51,689 nucleotides of DNA from SAR86 cluster bacterium AG-422-P06 (GTDB lineage: Bacteria; Pseudomonadota; Gammaproteobacteria; Magnimaribacterales; TMED112): the NCBI GenBank assembly GCA_003213455.1, contig QCMX01000004.1, positions 1 through 51,689 of the forward strand. Direction: 5' to 3'. Positions 10,855-45,126 of this stretch are shown here, piece after piece. The notes under the pieces were generated by a model. It had not been told where the DNA came from, ran no database searches, and worked only from the letters and a program-made list of their open reading frames with translations. Position numbers and translations under genes: made by a program. Numbering within the stretch: the first letter of the stretch is position 1; every line of letters begins with the position of its first letter.

Positions 10855-12117
10855 TGTTTGCTTTAATTGACTGTAATAGCTTCTATGCCTCATGTGAAAA
10901 AATATTTAGACCAGATTTAAAGGATCGCCCTGTTGTAATTTTGAGCAATAATGATGGTTGTGTAATTGCAAGATCTTCAGAAGCTAAAAAAATGGGGGTC
11001 AGTATGACGCAGCCCTGGTATCAGATTAAAGATCAGTATTTATCTAAAGGAGGTATAGTCTTTTCATCTAATTATGAGTTTTATGCAGATATCTCCAATA
11101 GAGTTATGAATGTTCTATCTGATCTTTGTCCAGAAATTGATATATATAGTATAGATGAGGCATTTTTAGATCTAAGATCATTCAAAAAAAATATTGATCT
11201 AGTTAATTTCGCCTATGACTGCAAAAGAAAAATTAGAGAATGGGTTGGCGTCCCTGTAAGTATTGGCATAGCCCCGACCAAGACACTTGCTAAGCTTGCA
11301 AATAAAGTTGCTAAAGATGATCCAAGATTTGACGGGGTCGTTATTTTATCTGAGCCAAGAGTCATAAAACATTTTTTGAGATCTATGCCAGTTGAAAAGA
11401 TCTGGGGTATAGGCAAGAGACTAACTGCAAGACTTGAAAATATCGGAGTAAAAACCGCCCATGACCTAACACAAATAGATTCAAGGCTAATAGGAGATAA
11501 TTTTAATGTTGTGCTAGAAAGAACTGTTAGAGAATTAAAAGGCCAATCATGTATAACATTGCATGATTTTATGGAACCTAAAAAAACAAATAATGGTTAG
11601 CAGAAGTTTTGGGAGAAGTATAAGGACAAAAAACGTACTCAGTGAAGCAATTAGCTTCCACGCAAGCAGAGCTGCAGAAAAATTAAGGTATGAAAAACAG
11701 AAATGTAGATTAATAACTACCTTTATCAGATCAAATAGATTCAACACCAAGATCAAACAAATATATGCTTCCAGGTCGCTTGAATTAATTCATCCTACAG
11801 ACGATACAAGGACAATAATCAAGAGCGCAAATCGTATATTAGAAAAGATATATGCGAATGGTTACCAATATGCGAAAGCAGGTATATTGTTAAGTGATTT
11901 TACTGATAGCTATGGTTACCAAATGTCTCTCTTTGATAAAAAAAGGGATGAAAAAAGTGCATCAAAATTAATGGAAACCATCGACTACATTAATTTAATG
12001 GAAATAGCTAAAGTCGGGTTTGGAAATCAGGGTTATCAAAATACCTGGAAGATGAAAAGAGAAATAAAATCACAGAGATACACAACCAAAATTGATGAAA
12101 TTCCAATAATTAAGTAA
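10854..12117 (+). pseudogene. umuC: DNA polymerase V catalytic subunit, frameshifted
   Basis: Y-family translesion polymerase. The first part (10854-11600) holds the palm and fingers: DCNSFYASCE with the first metal Asp, NNDGCVIARS and SIDEAFLDL with the Asp-Glu pair, then the helix-hairpin-helix region KIWGIGKRL. It stops after DFMEPKKTNNG. The little-finger and C-terminal region continues in another frame (VSRSFGRSI, AAEKLRYEKQ, LIHPTDDTR, QNTWKMKRE, SQRYTT) to 12117. The break is A7 at 11580-11586; deleting one A joins them into a normal-length protein of about 420 residues. Same lesion type as lpxH. If real, the truncated form keeps catalytic residues but loses the little finger. Confidence 0.9.
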
Positions 12118-35731: not shown

Positions 35732-35989
35732 ATGAGTCTTATTAAAAACCCAAAATGTATTTATAAGAAGGTTGATGGAATTGGAGTAATTCTAGAGCCT
35801 GAAAGTGGTAAATTTATTGAATTAAATTCAACTGCTTTAGAAATTTGGAATTTGCTTGACGAAATAGGAGATGCAGCCCTTTTAGAGAAAAAATTAATTG
35901 AAAAATATGAGATGAATGAAGCTATTGGTATTGATATAGCTGAATTTTTAACAAATGCTTTGGCAGCTAATATTATTATAAAAAATTGA
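35732..35989 (+). CDS. Lasso peptide B1-type leader-binding protein (PqqD-like RRE)
   Basis: 85 residues, a stand-alone PqqD-like RiPP recognition element: three-strand start with GVILEPESGKFIELN, then ALEIWNLLDEIG and a helical C-terminal part with LIEKYEMNEA. In lasso peptide systems the B1 protein grips the leader and presents it to the B2 protease. Its stop TGA overlaps the TTG start of the next gene. The identity follows from fold pattern plus strict adjacency to B2 and C genes. Confidence 0.88.
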   Translation: MSLIKNPKCIYKKVDGIGVILEPESGKFIELNSTALEIWNLLDEIGDAALLEKKLIEKYEMNEAIGIDIAEFLTNALAANIIIKN

Positions 35990-36381
35990 AAAACCAGCAA
36001 AAGCAATTAAGCATCAAGCATCATAAATTCTTTTACCTTAAAAATATATTTTTAGTTCTAACCGAATTATGTAAATTTTCATTAAGCAGTTTCGAGCAAA
36101 TAATAAATTCTCTAAAAAAACCAATTCCCAAAAATCACAAAAAAATTGCTGTTCTTTTTATCATAAAAAAAAGCACAAGATTATTAGATATCCTTAAAAT
36201 TAAATCTTGTTTTCTACGTTCCATAATAATTTTTAAATTACTGAAGAAGTACAATCATTCACCTAAACTGCATATAGGTATTAAGAGAGTTGAAAGCCTG
36301 TATTCCCATGCCTGGATAGAAGTTAATGATCTCAGAATAGATGCAAGCCGAGGCTTTGAAATATTTACAACGATAAAATGA
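35986..36381 (+). CDS. Lasso peptide B2 leader peptidase (transglutaminase-like)
   Basis: 131 residues, slightly short for B2 proteins (usually about 140-150). The C-terminal half is the Transglut_core3 cysteine protease: Cys75 in KSCFLRSIIIFKLL, LHIGIKRVE, His108 in SHAWIEVND and an Asp (Asp119 likely) completing the triad. B2 cuts the leader from the precursor after B1 delivers it. The start is TTG at 35986, overlapping the B1 stop; the end overlaps the cyclase start by 4 bases. The N-terminal 60 residues are basic and poorly conserved. Confidence 0.88.
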   Translation: MKNQQKQLSIKHHKFFYLKNIFLVLTELCKFSLSSFEQIINSLKKPIPKNHKKIAVLFIIKKSTRLLDILKIKSCFLRSIIIFKLLKKYNHSPKLHIGIKRVESLYSHAWIEVNDLRIDASRGFEIFTTIK

Positions 36382-38126
36382 CTAAATATTGCATCAAAAT
36401 AAATAAAAAATCGTTTTATGATCCTGCTGAATGTTCAGGCACTAATGTTGAATACAAAAATGACATTGCAGTTATTGGGGATTTAAGAATTGATAATAGG
36501 GCAGAACTGCAAAAAATTGAAAAATTAAGCCATACAAAAAGTGACGTTGAAATAATTGAATTTTTATATAAAAAATATGGTGAGAATTATATAAAAAAAA
36601 TTCATGGGGCATTTGCCTTCATTTTACATGACAAGCTTAATGGTCAGCTTTCAATTGCCAGGGATCAACTAGGCCAAAAAATAATCTACTATTTAGTAAA
36701 TAATAATGAAATTTATATTTCTTCATCAATACATGGTCTTTTAGATTATTCAGCAATTGAAAAAAAAATGAATCTCAATAGAGTCATTGATTTAATTGCG
36801 CATACTCATAGCCCATCCACAGAAACATTTTTTCAAGATATAAATTATTTAGAGCCTTCGACTATCATCCAGTTTAGTAAAAACAAAACTACAAAAAAAG
36901 AATTTAAATATAAATCTGATATTCACTTAAATAAGAATTTAAAAGAGTTATTTTATGAATCTGTGACATCTATTAAAGGTGAAAACTGTGGTTCAATGTT
37001 AAGCGGGGGTTTAGATTCCTCAGCTATATCAATAGCTCTTCAAGAATTAAGCAGAGAAAAAATTCAGTCATTTTCTGTTGTCTTTCCAGAACTTAGCCCT
37101 GAATTAAAAGCTATGGCTGATGAAGAAAAATATGTAAAAGAAGTTATAAAAAAACATGGAATGCACATGAATACAGTTCCTGTGAGTAAATTTAATTTCA
37201 TAAAAAATATTAGGGAGAACACGGCTTACTTTGAAGAACCATTCATGGCTACAAATACATACATTTATGAAGAAGTATTTAAAAAAATGAATGAAAAGGG
37301 AGTAGACATAGTCTTAGATGGCACAGATGGTGATAGTGTGATTTCTCATGGGACAGAAATCTTTAGACATTACGGGGAAAAATTTGAAATACAAAAATTG
37401 CTGAAATCAAAGAAAGATTACGATAGAATTCGCGGCAAAAAACACTCAGCTTTATCAACTTTGAGGACAATATTTTCATTTGTAATAATGCCTAGACTTC
37501 CAAAATGGTTATTTATTCAGTTAAAGAGGATAAAGAATACCGATTTCTTATACATGCAGAATATTTTGCTCAACAAAGCATTTAGAAAAACTAATGAGAA
37601 GCTTTATAAAGATGCAGAAAAATTATATAACCCAAAAAAGTCATTCAACAACTTTGCTGAAAAAGCACATCATATGATGGTTTACAATTCTCATTGGGAT
37701 GATGTTTTTAATATACTTAATATAATTGCGAAAAAATATAATGTAGAAATAAGGTTTCCTTTTTTCTATCAGCCTTTAGTAAATTTTTGCTTATCTGAGC
37801 CTGTTACAAACAAAACAAAAAATGGCGTAGATAGATATAATTTTCGAGAAGCTTTAAAAGAGCAATTACCTAAAAAAATATATGAAAGAAACTCTAAGTC
37901 AAATCTCAGTCCAATTTTTACTGAAAGTTTCATGAATATTGATCCAAATTACTCTAATGAAGTTTTTTTTGAAAAAGATTCTCCAATTTATAATCTTGTA
38001 GATCAAAAAGAAATAAAAAAATTATTAGATTCCAAAGACCCAAAAAAAAATCTTGCGATAATTTATACGTTTTTTAGCTTGTATGAATGGATGAAAAAAA
38101 ATCATTTTATTGTAACTATTGATTAA
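36378..38126 (+). CDS. Lasso peptide macrolactam synthetase (asparagine synthetase-like)
   Basis: 582 residues. The N-terminal Ntn-like domain (1-190) lacks Cys2, so glutaminase activity is absent, as in lasso cyclases. The C-terminal ATP-pyrophosphatase domain has the P-loop SGGLDSS at 209-215, FEEPFMATNTYIYEEVF and DGTDGDSVISHG, and ends with the arginine/lysine-rich segment before FTESFMN. The C protein adenylates an Asp or Glu side chain in the core and joins it to the new N-terminal amine. The gene is very AT-rich (line 36541-36600 has 10 G/C in 60) with intact A9 runs, suggesting foreign origin or relaxed composition. Confidence 0.9.
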   Translation: MTKYCIKINKKSFYDPAECSGTNVEYKNDIAVIGDLRIDNRAELQKIEKLSHTKSDVEIIEFLYKKYGENYIKKIHGAFAFILHDKLNGQLSIARDQLGQKIIYYLVNNNEIYISSSIHGLLDYSAIEKKMNLNRVIDLIAHTHSPSTETFFQDINYLEPSTIIQFSKNKTTKKEFKYKSDIHLNKNLKELFYESVTSIKGENCGSMLSGGLDSSAISIALQELSREKIQSFSVVFPELSPELKAMADEEKYVKEVIKKHGMHMNTVPVSKFNFIKNIRENTAYFEEPFMATNTYIYEEVFKKMNEKGVDIVLDGTDGDSVISHGTEIFRHYGEKFEIQKLLKSKKDYDRIRGKKHSALSTLRTIFSFVIMPRLPKWLFIQLKRIKNTDFLYMQNILLNKAFRKTNEKLYKDAEKLYNPKKSFNNFAEKAHHMMVYNSHWDDVFNILNIIAKKYNVEIRFPFFYQPLVNFCLSEPVTNKTKNGVDRYNFREALKEQLPKKIYERNSKSNLSPIFTESFMNIDPNYSNEVFFEKDSPIYNLVDQKEIKKLLDSKDPKKNLAIIYTFFSLYEWMKKNHFIVTID

Positions 38127-38153
38127 TAGAACAGATGGTGATATAAATCTCGT

Positions 38154-38306
38154 ATGGAAAAGAAACATACTTGGCATAAACCAACAATTAAAGTCTTTGA
38201 TTCAGCTAAAGACTTTATACAGGGCGTAGATACCATTGGTGGTGTAAAGAAAGAGATTGGAACACCGTCAGACACAGCCTTCGCCAATTCAATAATCTCA
38301 CCATAA
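38154..38306 (+). CDS. Lasso-type RiPP precursor peptide (A)
   Basis: 50 residues, ATG to TAA, between the cyclase and the kinase (27 and 3 bases away), so its position is exactly that of a lasso precursor. The leader has Trp7-x-Lys9-Pro10-x-Ile12, the aromatic version of the YxxPxL motif bound by B1, followed by a hydrophobic Val14-Phe15. Thr27 in VDTIGG is the natural -2 threonine, giving a 22-residue core from Gly29 to Pro50. The only acidic residues in that core are Glu34 (core 6) and Asp40 (core 12), neither at the usual 7-9. The C-terminus is NSIISP, with Ser49 next to last. Confidence 0.82.
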   Translation: MEKKHTWHKPTIKVFDSAKDFIQGVDTIGGVKKEIGTPSDTAFANSIISP

Positions 38307-38309
38307 TAC

Positions 38310-39176
38310 TTGAGAGTAAAACCTTTTAATTTAATTAATGTTCATGCGAACTTTTCTCATGATTTGTTAATAAAAAAAGATGTATTATCAAATGATTCAA
38401 ACTTAGAAATAAACCTTTCAGACAACAAAAAAATTGAAAAGGATTTTGTTTCAAGCTCGAAAATTTTTTTTAATAAAACTGGCATTGCTACTTATGAAAT
38501 TTTAGATGGCAGTGTAATTAATATATATCCTTATAAAAACGTTGATACAAATACTTTACTCTACTACGGGCTTCAAATACCTTTTGGGTGCGCTTGTGTA
38601 CAAAATAAGAAGCTTGTTTTTCATGCTTCAGTTGCCGAGAAAGATGGCAAATGTTTTGCTTTTTTAGGGAGTCCAGGTGCAGGAAAATCATCTCTTTTGA
38701 TTGAATTAATAGAATCTGGATGGAATTTTATAACAGAAGATATATGTGTCCTTGATGACGACTATAATCTTAATTTTATTAGCTTATTTCCATATATAAA
38801 GCTTTCAAATGAAGTTGCTACAAAGCATACAAATAAATTGATTTTAACTGGTATAAAAACAGATAGATTAGGCAGACAAACTTATCAGATAGATTTATCA
38901 AATGTTTCGGCAGGAGGCATTCTTGAATCTATCTTTATCCTCGATTGGAGCCAAGAAAAAAATTTATATCAACCTGCTGAATCAACAAAACTTAGACTTT
39001 TGCTAAATTATCTTGTGCCTTCTTTCCAAGCAAAAGCTAATAATATTCATATTGATTCCTATAAAAAAATACTTAAGCTTATCGATTCACTACCAATATT
39101 CGTGCTAGAAAGACCAAGATCTCTTGGCAAAAAAGTTATTCAAACAACAATCGATAGATTAAATTTTCTTATTTAG
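38310..39176 (+). CDS. HPr-kinase-like tailoring kinase
   Basis: 288 residues, TTG start three bases after the precursor stop. A poorly conserved N-terminal half is followed by the HPrK C-terminal fold: FHASVAEKDGKCFAFLG with conserved His105, P-loop GSPGAGKSS (120-128) and ITEDICVLDDD. No sugar phosphotransferase genes are near, so HPr is an unlikely substrate. In paeninodin-type lasso clusters such kinases phosphorylate the C-terminal Ser of the precursor; here Ser49 or Ser46 would be the candidate. The stop overlaps the convergent permease stop by 4 bases. Confidence 0.85.
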   Translation: MRVKPFNLINVHANFSHDLLIKKDVLSNDSNLEINLSDNKKIEKDFVSSSKIFFNKTGIATYEILDGSVINIYPYKNVDTNTLLYYGLQIPFGCACVQNKKLVFHASVAEKDGKCFAFLGSPGAGKSSLLIELIESGWNFITEDICVLDDDYNLNFISLFPYIKLSNEVATKHTNKLILTGIKTDRLGRQTYQIDLSNVSAGGILESIFILDWSQEKNLYQPAESTKLRLLLNYLVPSFQAKANNIHIDSYKKILKLIDSLPIFVLERPRSLGKKVIQTTIDRLNFLI

Positions 39177-39991
39177 TAATGTGATAATGTTCCTTTTTTT
39201 CTTGAGGTATCTATTGCTCTCGAAATAGATGAGTAACCCAAGACAAGATAGAAGATAGCTAAAAATAATAATTTTAAAGCAGAGAAATAAGAACTATTGA
39301 TATTACTTTCCTCGACTAATTCGTTTCTAACTATATCTAATGTATGAGTAAGAGGCATCAATTCAGAAAGATATATAAAGATTTGAGGTAAAACATCATT
39401 TGGGTAAATAGCACCTGAAATAATTAAGGGCCCTCCCACAAAGACTAAACTAAGATAGTCTCCCTTTTTATAAATGAGGATAATTGATAGACCTATCATT
39501 GATATGCCAATAAATGCTACCAGCGTAATACAACATACTGCTAGTAGTGTAATGATGTCTCGAATTGAAAGAATCTGATCACTTAGAGCCCATGAAACTA
39601 TAAAAATCAATAAGAGCCTTAGAAATGACTTTACAAATGTATAGAATACTGAAGATATAGATAAGAAAATAAATCTATTTTTTGAAACGAATAATTCTTC
39701 AATATATCCAAAGCTTTGAGCTTCCCTCAAATTATTACTGATAGCTGCGTAAGACTGCCCCATTAGATTAACTATTGAAAAACCTGTGATAGAAAAGAGA
39801 AAGAATTCTCCTTTAAACCTGCTGTAAAAAGAGTCCTCAGAAAAATTAAATGACTTGGATAAGAAAAATAAAAAAAATACTAATAAAAAGGCAAAAACTA
39901 GTTCAGTAAAAAAACTTAGCTTATATGAAAATTGAAAGAGGAAATCTTTTTTGAATGATGCCCTTAGAATGTTTAAATAACTAGCCAGCAT
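39173..39991 (-). CDS. ABC-2 type transporter permease
   Basis: 272 residues with six hydrophobic segments (roughly 25-48, 66-80, 108-137, 140-172, 180-200, 240-260), the layout of an ABC-2 export permease. The stretch YIEELFVSKNRFIFL lies on the cytoplasmic side, as in drug and polysaccharide exporters. It overlaps its ATPase by 11 bases. Pointing into the RiPP operon, it is a candidate peptide exporter, although lasso exporters are usually single fused polypeptides. Confidence 0.82.
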   Translation of the reverse strand: MLASYLNILRASFKKDFLFQFSYKLSFFTELVFAFLLVFFLFFLSKSFNFSEDSFYSRFKGEFFLFSITGFSIVNLMGQSYAAISNNLREAQSFGYIEELFVSKNRFIFLSISSVFYTFVKSFLRLLLIFIVSWALSDQILSIRDIITLLAVCCITLVAFIGISMIGLSIILIYKKGDYLSLVFVGGPLIISGAIYPNDVLPQIFIYLSELMPLTHTLDIVRNELVEESNINSSYFSALKLLFLAIFYLVLGYSSISRAIDTSRKKGTLSHY

Positions 39992-40607
39992 TGAGTGATT
40001 CCATATGTAATATTGAGTCAGAAGATTGCTTTAAGAAGTTTATGTCATGCGAACTAATTAATACATTTTTTAAGCTATTATTTACAATCTCCTCCTGCAA
40101 AATTTTTACAATATTTTTAATTGATACCTCATCAATTGAAACAAAGGTTTCATCTAATATCAAAATATCAGGTTTATAAATTAGAGCACGAAGTATTGAT
40201 AATTTCTGAATCTCTCCTGTTGATAAGTTAGATACATTTCTGTCTAGCAAAGCAGATAAGCCTAGAATATTTGCTATTTGCTTTAATCTTTTATTAAAAA
40301 TAAATTTTCTGCCAGTTCTTGCGGTAAAGAAATAATCTAAATTTTCATAAGCTGTAATTCTATTAATAAAGGCCCTTTGATTACTGGCAACATAGCACAC
40401 ATTTGATTTGACAGGATCAAAAGCGACTGAGCCAGAATCTTGAGCTATTAACCCTGCTATTATTTTGAATAATGTTGTCTTGCCCGACCCATTTGAACCA
40501 TAGAAGGCATAAATTTTTTTGTCCTGCAATTCGAGACTAATATTAGTTAATACTTTTTTTGATGGCTTGTTTGAAAATGATTTATATATATTATTTAAGA
40601 AGATCAT
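39981..40607 (-). CDS. ABC transporter ATPase
   Basis: 208 residues from the ATG at 40607. A start further upstream (40700) would run across xthA and adds a sequence with no match to the ABC fold, so I reject it. Motifs: Walker A GSNGSGKTT (37-45), Q-loop VASNQRAF, signature LSTGEIQKL, Walker B DILILDETFVSIDE and switch His in SSHDINFL. It forms an exporter with the downstream permease. Its start codon is only 4 bases from the divergent xthA start. Confidence 0.9.
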   Translation of the reverse strand: MIFLNNIYKSFSNKPSKKVLTNISLELQDKKIYAFYGSNGSGKTTLFKIIAGLIAQDSGSVAFDPVKSNVCYVASNQRAFINRITAYENLDYFFTARTGRKFIFNKRLKQIANILGLSALLDRNVSNLSTGEIQKLSILRALIYKPDILILDETFVSIDEVSIKNIVKILQEEIVNNSLKNVLISSHDINFLKQSSDSILHMESLNAG

Positions 40608-40611
40608 AATT

Positions 40612-41412
40612 ATGTTAGTTATCACTTTTAATGTTAATGGAATCAGGGCAAGAATCCACCAATTAGATGCTTTAATCCAAAAATATAGTCCTGATATCAT
40701 CTGTTTACAAGAGATTAAAGTTTCTGATGAGGATTTTCCTTATACAACCATAGAGGAATTAGGCTATAGAGTTTTTAACTATGGTCAAAAAGGTTTTCAC
40801 GGTGTTGCAATTTTATGCAAAGTAGAGCCACTTAATGTTGTCAGGGGCCTAGATGGTGGTAAAGATGAAGAACAAAAAAGATATATTCAATGTGATTTTA
40901 AATCTAAAATTGGCACAATTTCTATATGTAACTCTTATTTCCCACAAGGGGAGAACAGGAAACATGAATTAAAGTTTCCATATAAAGAGCGCTACTACAA
41001 AAGAATTACTGAGCACCTTAAAAAAATTAAGAATAATTATATTGTGACTGGTGATTTCAATATAGCGCCTCTAGCAGTAGATAGGGCAATCGGTCTAGAT
41101 GCTGAAAAAAGATGGTTAAGAGAAGGTCATACAGCTTTTTTATCTGAAGAAATTGAATGGTTTTCAAATCTGACTGCTATTGGTCTTGAAGATATTTGGC
41201 GAAAAAATAATCCTAATGAAAATATCTCAACTTGGTTTGACTATCGATCTAGGGGTTTTGAAAGAGAACCGAAGAGAGGTTTAAGAATTGACTTTTTCCT
41301 CACAAATTTAGGTTTAAGAGATACTTATGTTGACTCAAAAATTGATCATGAAATTAGAGCAATGGATAAACCCTCTGATCATTGCCCTGTAACTCTTAAA
41401 TTAAATATTTGA
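40612..41412 (+). CDS. xthA: Exodeoxyribonuclease III
   Basis: 266 residues from ATG 40612, which gives MLVITFNVNGIRAR as in E. coli XthA. The longer frame from 40519 is antisense to the ABC ATPase and is rejected. Motifs: LQEIKVSDEDFP with the metal Glu, YGQKGFHGVAIL, GDFNIAPLAVD, and SDHCPV with the catalytic Asp-His. It is the AP endonuclease and 3'-5' exonuclease of base excision repair. A housekeeping gene lodged between RiPP genes is odd and may mark one edge of an inserted locus. Confidence 0.95.
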   Translation: MLVITFNVNGIRARIHQLDALIQKYSPDIICLQEIKVSDEDFPYTTIEELGYRVFNYGQKGFHGVAILCKVEPLNVVRGLDGGKDEEQKRYIQCDFKSKIGTISICNSYFPQGENRKHELKFPYKERYYKRITEHLKKIKNNYIVTGDFNIAPLAVDRAIGLDAEKRWLREGHTAFLSEEIEWFSNLTAIGLEDIWRKNNPNENISTWFDYRSRGFEREPKRGLRIDFFLTNLGLRDTYVDSKIDHEIRAMDKPSDHCPVTLKLNI

Positions 41413-42482
41413 TGAGACTGAATCTACTCAAAACAATCTTTGATAACTCTATAACCTCAAGCTCTTTGTCGAACAATGAGTTAGAAGGTCTTATGAAGAC
41501 CTGTGAAAAACATAGGATCAAACAAATATTCATCGATCATATGGATATGGTTAAGGATCATAGAGCAAATTATAGAGAATATGCAAAAAAATATACTCGT
41601 TATTCATTAACGAGAGACTTAAACATCCTGAGTGAGATAGACAAGCTTGCCCTACTTCTGGAAAGCAGAAAAATTAACTTTGTTTTCTTAAAAGGTGCAG
41701 CATTTAAAAAAGCATTATATAAAAAATCAACTTTTAGAGATTGTAGAGACATTGACGTATTAGTAAGTACTAAAGATGTTAAACCAACGCTAGAAACTCT
41801 ATTTGAAAATGGTTACAAGTATGTCGTGGCTCAAGAAAGTCGAAATACTCAAATTGATTATGAGAATAGTCATCAAGCTCCTGTTTTATTTTCTCCTAAC
41901 GGGCAATATGTTGAGATACATTACAGGTTAACTATGGAAAATAAGAAATGTCTCATTTCTGATGATATGCTTCAGCAACAAAAAAATTATATTGGACCTA
42001 ATAGCCTGAATCTAATTCATATTGCCTATCATGCATTGATAATTAATAAGCTTAATAATGGGCTGATGTCTTTAATAGATATTAATTATTTGCTGAATGG
42101 TACTTCAAAAAATGAGGTCATTCATGCTGCAGAAAAATATAATTTGAGCGGGAAGATCAAACATATGATAGAGCTTTATGAATTTAACTTATTTAACAAG
42201 CAATTTAATCATAATAAAACAGAAATATTATTAATATCAAATGAACTTATACATGCTGGTGAAGTATTAGTTGGTTTTAAAGCACACTCAAGAAGCTTAA
42301 ATATTTTTAAGAAAAAATATTTGGGCAAGGAAGGGGGCAAGTTAGATTCTTTAAGAATAAATATTTCATTTATAAGATATATCTTTAATAAATTATTTTT
42401 TCACATTGTGTCTGTAATAAAAAATCCAAATTTATGGAGTAAAAGAAATAGGCTAAAAAAATATTTAAAGAAAGAAGATTAG
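41412..42482 (+). CDS. Nucleotidyltransferase family 5 protein, putative RiPP tailoring enzyme
   Basis: 356 residues from the ATG at 41412; a TTG one codon earlier is also possible. Core motif VFLKGAAFKKALY then RDCRDIDVLVSTKDV carries the metal-binding acidic pair of NTP_transf_5 (PF14907); HQAPVLFSPNGQYVEIHYRL follows. Such genes recur beside lasso clusters that also encode HPr-like kinases, so it probably belongs with the RiPP locus despite xthA lying between. It shares TGATG with xthA and converges on DUF962 with a 4-base overlap. Its substrate is unknown. Confidence 0.8.
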   Translation: MRLNLLKTIFDNSITSSSLSNNELEGLMKTCEKHRIKQIFIDHMDMVKDHRANYREYAKKYTRYSLTRDLNILSEIDKLALLLESRKINFVFLKGAAFKKALYKKSTFRDCRDIDVLVSTKDVKPTLETLFENGYKYVVAQESRNTQIDYENSHQAPVLFSPNGQYVEIHYRLTMENKKCLISDDMLQQQKNYIGPNSLNLIHIAYHALIINKLNNGLMSLIDINYLLNGTSKNEVIHAAEKYNLSGKIKHMIELYEFNLFNKQFNHNKTEILLISNELIHAGEVLVGFKAHSRSLNIFKKKYLGKEGGKLDSLRINISFIRYIFNKLFFHIVSVIKNPNLWSKRNRLKKYLKKED

Positions 42483-42903: not shown

Positions 42904-45126
42904 ATGATCAATAAAAACATTAAATTATTTACTTTATTTTTTGTGCTCTTTGGCAGCACTTTAAGTGCAGACAATGAAGCACCTATTCTACAACCTGGCT
43001 CTCCAGGAGAATCAACCAAAGAAATAAGCGCTGAAAAAGCCTCTGATATTGCTAATAGCTCATATACAGTTGCTGACGTAAATTTCATGCAAGGCATGAT
43101 TGTTCATCATGAACAAGCTCTAACAATGTCTAGAATGGCATCTCAAAGAACAAACTCTAAAGCTATATTGGATCTAGCTGGCAGAATCGAAGGTTCGCAA
43201 GAAGATGAAATTCAATTCATGGTCTCATGGCTGAAAGATCGAGATGAAGATACTAATTACAAAATGAATCATATGAATATGCATCATGGTATGGATCACG
43301 ATATGGATCATAATATGGATCACAGCATGCATCACGGTATGCATAAAATGTCTGGAATGGCCTCACCACTTCAATTAAAAAACTTAGAGAACTCAAAATC
43401 AGTAGATTTTGATAGATTATTTTTACAATTAATGATTGCCCACCACGATGGTGCAATTGATATGGTTGATGACTTAAAAGAACAACCTGGTTCAAGATAT
43501 GACCAACTTCTAAGTGAATTTGTCTCTGACCTAGTAAACGATCAAGCAATAGAGATAGAAAGAATGAATAGAATTCTTATAAATATTTCTGATGATCCAA
43601 GAGCTGGCCTAGCTGCAGGACTTTTCACTGCTGAAGAAGTCATTAGTAATATGGAACTAATTGCATCACTTAGAAAGCCCGTAGGTTTTTACGATCCCAA
43701 AAACCCTGCTATGAAGAAAGCTATAGATGAGGATGATGAAGATGAAGTAAAACCTATAGAAGTGGCATCACAAGGTAGATCACCAATGTTAAGTTTTTCA
43801 AATACAGATATGGCATTTAGAGATGATGTATTAGTTGCTGGCAGCTATCATGGTTTTAATATTTATAGGCTAGCTGAGAATGGTGTGCCTTCTTTAATCT
43901 CATCGGTAATCTGTCCAGGAGGGCAAGGAGATGTTTCAATTGTTGGAGATCTTCTCATCATGTCAGTACAAGATACAAGAGGTAGATTGGATTGTGGTTT
44001 ACAGGGAGTTGGATCTGAACCTTCTCCAGAAAGATTTAGAGGTATAAGAATATTTGATATTTCAAATCTAGAGATGCCTATGCAAGTAGGTGCTGTGCAA
44101 ACTTGTAGAGGTTCTCATACTCACTCTGTAGTCTCAGGTCCAGATAAAGACGGCATAATTGTAGTCTACAATTCCGGAACTTCTTCTATTAGAGAAGATG
44201 AAGAGTTGGCCGGTTGTTTTGATGGGCCTGGTGATAGTAGAACAGCATTATTTAGAATTGATGTTATTGAAATACCAGTAGATGATCCAAGCAAAGCACG
44301 TATTGTAAAAAGTCCTGCTGTTTTTGCAGATGAGGAAACCGGTATTTTGGCAGGTTTATGGCGAGGTGGTGATCATGGAGATCGTACACAAAGAACTTCT
44401 AGAACCGATGAATGCCATGATATAACAGTCTTTCCTTCAGCAAATCTAGCTGCAGGTGCGTGTTCTGGTAACGGTATATTATTTGATATTTCTGATCCTT
44501 ATAATCCTAAAAGAATTGATGTTGTTACCGATGAAGGTTTTGCTTATTGGCACTCAGCTACATTTAACAACGATGGTACCAAGGTAGTCTTTACAGATGA
44601 ATGGGGTGGTGGTGGAAGACCAAGATGTAGAGCATGGGATCCACTTAATTGGGGAGCTAATGCAATATATGATATCGAAGACAATAAATTAGTTTTCAAA
44701 AGTCACTATAAAATGCCAGCGCCACAGACAGAAACTGAAAACTGTGTTGCCCATAATGGCTCGATCATTCCAGTTAAAGGCAGGGATATATTTATCCAAG
44801 CTTGGTACCAAGGCGGTATTTCCATGATGGATTTTACTGATTCAGATAACCCAATTGAAATTGGCTACTTTGATAGAGGGCCAATATCTGAGGAAACCCT
44901 TGGAACAGGTGGTTTCTGGTCAGTTTATTTCTATGAAGGCACAATATATGGCACAGAGATTGTTAGAGGTCTTGATGTGTTTAAGTTGACTGAGAGCGAA
45001 TATCTTACACAAGCTGAAATAGATAGTGCTATTAATGCATATCCAGCAGAAGGACCTAAGAGGTTATTTAATCCACAGCAGCAGATGCCAATGACTTGGC
45101 CAGAAGCATCTAGCTCTGGGAACTAA
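42904..45126 (+). CDS. Secreted DUF305 / LVIVD beta-propeller fusion with Met-His-rich linker
   Basis: 740 residues. A cleavable signal peptide (about 1-22, ending TLSA) is followed by a DUF305 domain with its two half-motifs, MIVHHEQA (65-72) and MIAHHDGA (177-184). Between them, residues 121-152 are almost all Met, His and Asp in an MDH-type repeat, suggesting copper or similar metal binding in the periplasm. From about residue 260 onward come LVIVD-type propeller repeats (GIRIFDISNLEMP, GILFDISDPYNPKRID, YWHSATFNNDGTKVVF). The fused layout and the DoxX partner (TAATG overlap) suggest an envelope metal or redox function. Substrate unknown. Confidence 0.85.
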   Translation: MINKNIKLFTLFFVLFGSTLSADNEAPILQPGSPGESTKEISAEKASDIANSSYTVADVNFMQGMIVHHEQALTMSRMASQRTNSKAILDLAGRIEGSQEDEIQFMVSWLKDRDEDTNYKMNHMNMHHGMDHDMDHNMDHSMHHGMHKMSGMASPLQLKNLENSKSVDFDRLFLQLMIAHHDGAIDMVDDLKEQPGSRYDQLLSEFVSDLVNDQAIEIERMNRILINISDDPRAGLAAGLFTAEEVISNMELIASLRKPVGFYDPKNPAMKKAIDEDDEDEVKPIEVASQGRSPMLSFSNTDMAFRDDVLVAGSYHGFNIYRLAENGVPSLISSVICPGGQGDVSIVGDLLIMSVQDTRGRLDCGLQGVGSEPSPERFRGIRIFDISNLEMPMQVGAVQTCRGSHTHSVVSGPDKDGIIVVYNSGTSSIREDEELAGCFDGPGDSRTALFRIDVIEIPVDDPSKARIVKSPAVFADEETGILAGLWRGGDHGDRTQRTSRTDECHDITVFPSANLAAGACSGNGILFDISDPYNPKRIDVVTDEGFAYWHSATFNNDGTKVVFTDEWGGGGRPRCRAWDPLNWGANAIYDIEDNKLVFKSHYKMPAPQTETENCVAHNGSIIPVKGRDIFIQAWYQGGISMMDFTDSDNPIEIGYFDRGPISEETLGTGGFWSVYFYEGTIYGTEIVRGLDVFKLTESEYLTQAEIDSAINAYPAEGPKRLFNPQQQMPMTWPEASSSGN

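Follow-up and report, generated by a model that had tools for sequence, protein, structure and literature searches.

A lasso-peptide-type RiPP gene cluster with an ABC-2 exporter in a SAR86 cluster bacterium

Described relatives and layout of the locus

The gene set A-B1-B2-C-K-N is known from the bsf and pseudomycoidin clusters. The bsf cluster of Bradymonas sediminis comprises A, B1, B2, C, D, K and N; its precursor, BsfA, is cut after Ile(-2)-Arg(-1), as mass spectrometry showed, and has a core with Asp8 and a phosphorylated Ser3 (PMC10368454). The same study places the ring acceptor of lasso peptides at position 7–9. The pseudomycoidin/paeninodin clusters of Bacillota share with the locus described here B1, B2, C, A, an HprK-like K and a WxxP leader, and their products are phosphorylated on a C-terminal Ser; the pseudomycoidin cluster also has N, and PsmN puts one or two hexoses on the phosphoserine (PMC9266682). 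Metanodin, ascribed to a gammaproteobacterium, has an Asn1-Asp9 ring and is encoded by a classical A-B-C cluster with a peptidase gene (PMC12670498). Clusters for linear polyphosphorylated peptides (LPPs) have an RRE, an HprK-like kinase and an NTP transferase in common with our locus, but they lack a macrolactam cyclase and use a signal-peptidase-like leader peptidase and an MsbA-like exporter (PMC13381572).

The window, the whole stretch of 51,689 nucleotides analysed here, is contig 4 of a 687-kb genome assembly (31 contigs, 66% complete). Its G+C content is 33.5%, and that of its relatives is 30–33%. The locus is bounded by ctpA and an Mpo1-like gene. B1, B2, C, A and K come first, all on the + strand and with gene ends that overlap or almost touch; a permease and an ATPase gene (-), xthA (+) and N (+) follow. 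Every frame at 35732–42482 is open and lies where an earlier note, made from the letters alone, had placed it. The genes are as follows.

35732..35989, +: B1, PqqD-like RiPP recognition element, 85 aa (PF05402; lasso B1 matches in the PDB)
35986..36381, +: B2, transglutaminase-like leader peptidase, 131 aa, TTG start (NF033537; Cys75/His108)
36378..38126, +: C, predicted ATP-dependent macrolactam cyclase, asparagine-synthetase-like, 582 aa, without Cys2 (NF033535; tree)
38154..38306, +: A, precursor peptide, 50 aa (homologues between C and K in relatives; leave-one-out profile)
38223..38303, +: predicted core GVDTIGGVKKEIGTPSDTAFANSIISP, 27 aa, if cut after Gln23 in the BsfA register (leader-anchored alignment)
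38310..39176, +: K, predicted HprK-like peptide kinase, 288 aa, TTG start (family profiles, invariant residues, fold)
39173..39991, -: ABC-2 type permease of the exporter, 272 aa (PF01061; alignment with relatives)
39981..40610, -: ABC ATPase of the exporter, about 209 aa (PF00005; the listed frame runs to 40700)
40612..41412, +: xthA, exodeoxyribonuclease III, resident, outside the cluster (ctpA-xthA adjacency in eleven sister genomes)
41409..42482, +: N, PF14907 nucleotidyltransferase, TTG or ATG start (PF14907; found in all ten loci)

The best explanation, which we consider probable, is that all of these genes except xthA, eight in number, make up a RiPP cluster of the lasso-peptide type that entered the chromosome at a conserved site. 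By analogy with characterised relatives, we infer the enzymatic steps, the cleavage site and export. B1 would bind the WxxPxI leader of the 50-residue precursor, and K would phosphorylate a core Ser or Thr prior to processing, probably with the help of B1. B2 would then cut the leader after Gln23 (Ile at -2), releasing a 27-residue core with an N-terminal Gly, and C, acting as a lasso cyclase, would spend ATP on linking the freed N-terminus to an acidic side chain. The phosphate may receive a hexose or a nucleotide through the action of N, and the ABC-2 pair would export the product.

Kinship of the modifying enzymes

In the HMM search that the earlier note had proposed, PF05402, NF033537 and PF14907 gave matches, NF033535 was the top model for C, and matches to K were weak. 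B1 scores over the PF05402 cut-off (E=2.7e-12), and a profile built from the ten B1 proteins has as its best PDB matches TbiB1 (5v1u), 9x90, TfuB1 (6jx3) and 9x8z, well before other PqqD proteins. Profiles from the order also match the bsf proteins, with 61 bits for BsfB1 and 49 bits for BsfK. B2 matches the lasso_biosyn_B2 model NF033537 with 41.4 bits (cut-off 33), and its Cys75 and His108 are invariant across the ten loci.

The closest solved structure to C is asparagine synthetase B, and one could read C as an ordinary asparagine synthetase with unrelated neighbours. We regard this as very improbable in view of its profile matches, its position in a tree, a separate homologue in the same genome and the conserved neighbourhood described below. 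The lasso cyclase model NF033535 is the top NCBIfam match (E=2.6e-76; 257.6 bits, below the strict cut-off of 525 bits), ahead of asparagine synthase (8.4e-55). The P-loop SGGLDSS (residues 209–215) is mostly invariant, and the window protein keeps every residue that is invariant among its ten relatives. The tree, quickly built from 90 cyclases and asparagine-synthetase-like proteins, has long branches that leave its finer joins unsure. In it, the order's ten C proteins group together (96% SH-aLRT) and belong to a larger set of 21 rows with 99% support, whose other members are nine proteins from B1-B2 clusters and two more. C thus stands apart from the true asparagine synthetases, a grouping with which the earlier note would have given up its reading. 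The glutaminase nucleophile of asparagine synthetase B is Cys2, which was found in none of the ten C proteins of the order (0/10); the source genome encodes a separate asparagine-synthetase-like protein that has it, beginning MCG. A scan of viral contigs with C returned zero relatives. Outside the order, the cyclases nearest to C come from B1-B2-C-A-K(-D-N) clusters in Chloroflexi, Rokubacteria, Omnitrophota, Rubrobacter and cyanobacteria (L032–L038). Where complete, these share the order B1-B2-C-A-K with the window, but they differ in their Thr(-2) leaders and, where a transporter is found (L033, L035), in having a one-piece D protein.

Sequence matches of K are weak (HprK_rel_A, 4.8e-10; Hpr_kinase_C, under the cut-off). 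The K family profile has HprK as its first match in the PDB, and the AlphaFold2 model (pLDDT 78) matches structures of PEPCK and HprK, two proteins that share a fold. Residues H105, G120, G125-K126-S127 and E143-D144 are invariant among the ten loci. Of the His-Lys-Asp-Asp motif of paeninodin-type kinases, His105, Lys126 and Asp144 are kept, and Glu143 stands at the place of the first Asp in 10/10; this Glu aligns with Asp186 of BsfK (PMC10368454), so that the motif reads Asp-Asp in bsf and Glu-Asp in the window. N matches PF14907 at E=2.6e-24, has an invariant K94-G95 and likewise invariant D113 and D115, the two aspartates of the nucleotidyltransferase motif. Its model is weak (mean pLDDT 64): the best matches have a nucleotidyltransferase fold (MenT1 and ANT(2''), for example) and score E 0.002–0.02, and no PDB match reaches E<0.001. 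Given the PsmN precedent, a similar transfer is the likeliest guess for N.

Precursor, cleavage register and ring

The leader of A contains W(-17)xxP(-14)xI(-12), with the sequence WHKPTI, and Ile(-2), a spacing equal to that of BsfA, whose leader has YxxPxL and Ile(-2). Searches of NCBIfam and Pfam with A gave zero matches. A profile of nine relatives, built without the window, recovers the window precursor at E=1.6e-6, and the next-best of the 908 window frames scores E=3.2; the 50-residue precursor is therefore no chance frame. Every relative locus read has a small frame with the same leader between C and K. The precursor is thus conserved in relatives that carry B1, B2 and C, the point on which the earlier note had staked its reading.

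Anchored on W/Y-xx-P-x-[LIV], a cut in the BsfA register falls behind [I/V/T](-2)-X(-1) in 21/21 precursors. In this register the window core has no Asp or Glu at positions 7–9; its acidic residues are D3, E11 and D17, and both Asp8 and Ser3 of the bsf core are missing. Across a wider set, 13/18 precursors have Asp or Glu at core 7–9 (p=0.0003, as 0.03% of shuffles reach that number), where the p-value treats the precursors as independent, though their sequences are related, and where the set, which excludes the near-duplicates L014 and L020 as well as BsfA and never included L115, was chosen after the register table had been seen, with positions 7–9 fixed beforehand from the literature. For the order alone, the count is 7/9 (shuffle p=0.02). 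This enrichment supports both the cleavage register and a lasso ring as the usual chemistry of the family. Three cores of the order start with Asn (L012, L015 and L017) and two with Asp (L019 and L020), and all five carry Asp9. For the three with Asn, an Asn1-Asp9 ring is predicted from sequence, as found in metanodin, and for L019 an Asp1-Asp9 ring; the window core instead begins with Gly. Other cores of the order combine G1 with D7 (L018), G1 with E7 (L112) and M1 with D7 (L016). The L013 and L014 cores have D6 and D14 and, like the window copy, nothing at 7–9. A canonical lasso ring is therefore predicted for most relatives and unpredicted for the window copy. The mass of the core minus water, which the earlier note had suggested looking for, comes to 2655.376 Da (monoisotopic) for cyclised GVDTIGGVKKEIGTPSDTAFANSIISP, with 79.966 Da more if phosphorylated; it assumes a ring, and the window core is without an acidic residue at 7–9. 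The other frames of the core region were read by eye for a frame shift that would restore one, and none was better.

Three other readings of the window core have to be weighed. As a variant within the main reading, the lasso machinery may form an unusual ring, either on Glu11 (eleven residues) or, after a cut two residues later, between Asp3 and Glu11 as positions 1 and 9. We view this as a tentative possibility. The first acidic acceptor also stands at 10–11 in the Rokubacteria/Chloroflexi precursors L033 (D10) and L032 (D11), Asp1 is paired with Asp9 in L019 and L020, and an Asn1-Asp9 ring was shown for metanodin (PMC12670498). Acceptors beyond 9 depart from the 7–9 rule given in the bsf paper (PMC10368454), however, and the shifted cut would place Gly at -2, against Ile, Val or Thr in all 21 precursors compared.

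A linear product, with B1, B2, K and N active and C idle or otherwise employed, would recall the LPP clusters, whose RRE, HprK-like kinase and NTP transferase occur without a macrolactam cyclase (PMC13381572), and the core of L035, like that of the window, has no acidic residue at 7–9. We think this unlikely, since C retains all residues invariant in its ten relatives and B2 is present. Moreover, neither an MsbA-like exporter nor an LPP-type leader peptidase is seen in the cluster: a Pfam/NCBIfam search of the window cluster for a signal-peptidase-like gene found none, and C and B2 are there.

The cluster could also be decaying, its acceptor lost from the core and its locus rearranged, with the exporter strand-flipped and N separated by xthA. 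Gene order and strands are indeed unlike those of the nine relatives, and the GxGD core motif present in all nine is missing from the window core. As all eight genes are open, the active-site residues are retained and the leader is conserved, we judge decay to be quite unlikely.

We file the locus as a lasso-type cluster and not as a proven lasso peptide, because the core lacks one defining feature of the family, an acidic residue at 7–9, and threading of the product is putative. At the level of sequence, a lasso-type gene cluster is well supported, and we still favour a pathway that would work in a lasso-like manner at least as far as cutting off the leader and modifying the core at the expense of ATP.

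The site of phosphorylation suggested in the earlier note, a C-terminal Ser as in paeninodin, found no support: the window precursor ends in Ile-Ser-Pro, and no Ser position is conserved. Elsewhere in the order the precursors end in A, G, T or S; counting all members, 4/11 end in Ser, and neither a paeninodin-style C-terminal Ser nor Ser3 of BsfA is conserved as a phosphosite among the precursors compared.

Two other loci have tandem precursors. The cyanobacterial L037 has two near-identical genes (10893–11045 and 11222–11374) with Q1-D9 cores. L115 (1085–1623), from the same class as the window, has two precursors with YHTPKL leaders beside a PqqD-like gene, and a cyclase is absent within the short stretch inspected.

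Exporter, insertion site and distribution

The exporter ATPase matches PF00005 at E=7e-26, and the permease matches PF01061 under the cut-off in the window and above it in relatives. For the ATPase, a start at 40610 is more likely than one at 40700, since relatives align from 40610; this gives 209 aa and removes the overlap with xthA. An ABC-2 permease with a separate ATPase is found in 10/10 loci of the order. One-piece proteins (ABC_membrane with ABC_tran) occur in L133, L033 (below cut-off) and L035, and in L036 and L037 ABC_tran lies in frames about as long as one-piece transporters. L133, a paeninodin-family cluster compared directly, has the order C-A-K-B1-B2-D, with a one-piece PF00664 ABC transporter as D. 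From these sequences, a two-part ABC-2 exporter in place of the one-piece D transporter appears to be the main departure from the relatives examined. A literature search with partial coverage for lasso peptides together with ABC-2 found no paper on clusters of this kind, a weak sign of novelty. Of the combination that the earlier note had supposed to be undescribed, the kinase with the nucleotidyltransferase is already present in pseudomycoidin (PMC9266682) and bsf (PMC10368454), and the ABC-2 pair stands as an apparent departure. The exporter, the precursor and the occurrence of a lasso-type kit in this lineage look new. A lineage-specific branch, in which the ABC-2 exporter replaced the D transporter and some members, the window copy among them, close rings outside the 7–9 rule (for example Glu11; Asp3-Glu11), is conceivable, and we offer it as speculation.

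The insertion site is established by comparison with eleven sister genomes, in which ctpA adjoins xthA; plsC precedes the pair (the L131 sequence breaks off at this point) and Mpo1 follows it. In L122, ctpA and xthA overlap at ATGA. One of the eleven, G014, has a cluster elsewhere (L016, L125). In the window, B1 to K and the exporter separate ctpA from xthA, and N separates xthA from Mpo1. The empty ctpA-xthA site makes xthA a resident gene and not the embedded cluster member that the earlier note had seen; the same site rules it out as a tailoring gene. Between the same flanking genes, but in the opposite orientation, L014 has another cluster, whose C is about 28% identical, and L013 is arranged likewise, with ctpA truncated by the contig end. 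Further along the window (42904–45126), a 740-aa, DUF305-like-looking protein is rich in His and Met over one stretch, HHGMDHDMDHNMDHSMHHGMHKM, a potential metal-binding segment. Sister genomes, too, have this protein encoded next to xthA and Mpo1.

The comparison of gene order with related genomes, also proposed earlier, bears out a B1-B2-C-A-K cluster of lasso type with an exporter and a nucleotidyltransferase: the same eight genes are clustered in nine further genomes of the order (N, ATPase, permease, B1, B2, C, A and K together in 9/9 loci read fully), and the unit is thus conserved, with 14–36% identity between the proteins of the window and those of the nine relatives. The most frequent arrangement is N-ATPase-permease-B1-B2-C-A-K; L012 and L015 have N in inverted orientation, and L018 has it after K. 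The window variant has the exporter pair after K on the opposite strand and N past xthA. An eleventh locus (L112) is interrupted by a contig end. Among the 203 genomes surveyed in the order, mostly of 0.7–1.3 Mb, B2 occurs in 10 and the precursor in 11, from five genera; the 40 near-complete genomes of the order yielded no precursor (0/40). The precursor profile was also run against 369 genomes sampled from the class and 398 from the phylum: outside the window's own genome, all matches in the class were marginal, and the phylum gave a single match that is clearly lasso-like (L118). Literature searches for SAR86 with lasso or RiPP clusters returned nothing relevant, and with secondary metabolites an unrelated paper only.

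Streamlined cells are thought to offer little room for secondary metabolism. If our reading is correct, only some species of these streamlined, probably open-water bacteria maintain a 7-kb pathway devoted to a peptide. The cluster stands at the same chromosomal junction in three genomes, with proteins mostly 14–36% identical to those of the window; such patchy and divergent clusters would be in keeping with a rapidly evolving trait in competition or signalling. The ten loci also provide natural pairings of precursor and enzymes, several of which have cores with Asn1 or Asp1 or without a 7–9 acceptor and could probe how strict the ring rule of the lasso cyclase is.

Two kinds of neighbouring gene were observed in relatives. 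A 2OG-Fe(II) oxygenase gene, absent from the window, adjoins the cluster in L013 (8937–9488), L018 (10875–11477) and L014 (3007–3561), assigned by PF13640 in the first two and by similarity to L013 in the third; it is a possible hydroxylating tailoring enzyme. In L012 (1379–2500) and L015 (752–1879), metK (S-adenosylmethionine synthetase, as judged from its sequence) lies near the cluster, which hints at a second favoured insertion site.
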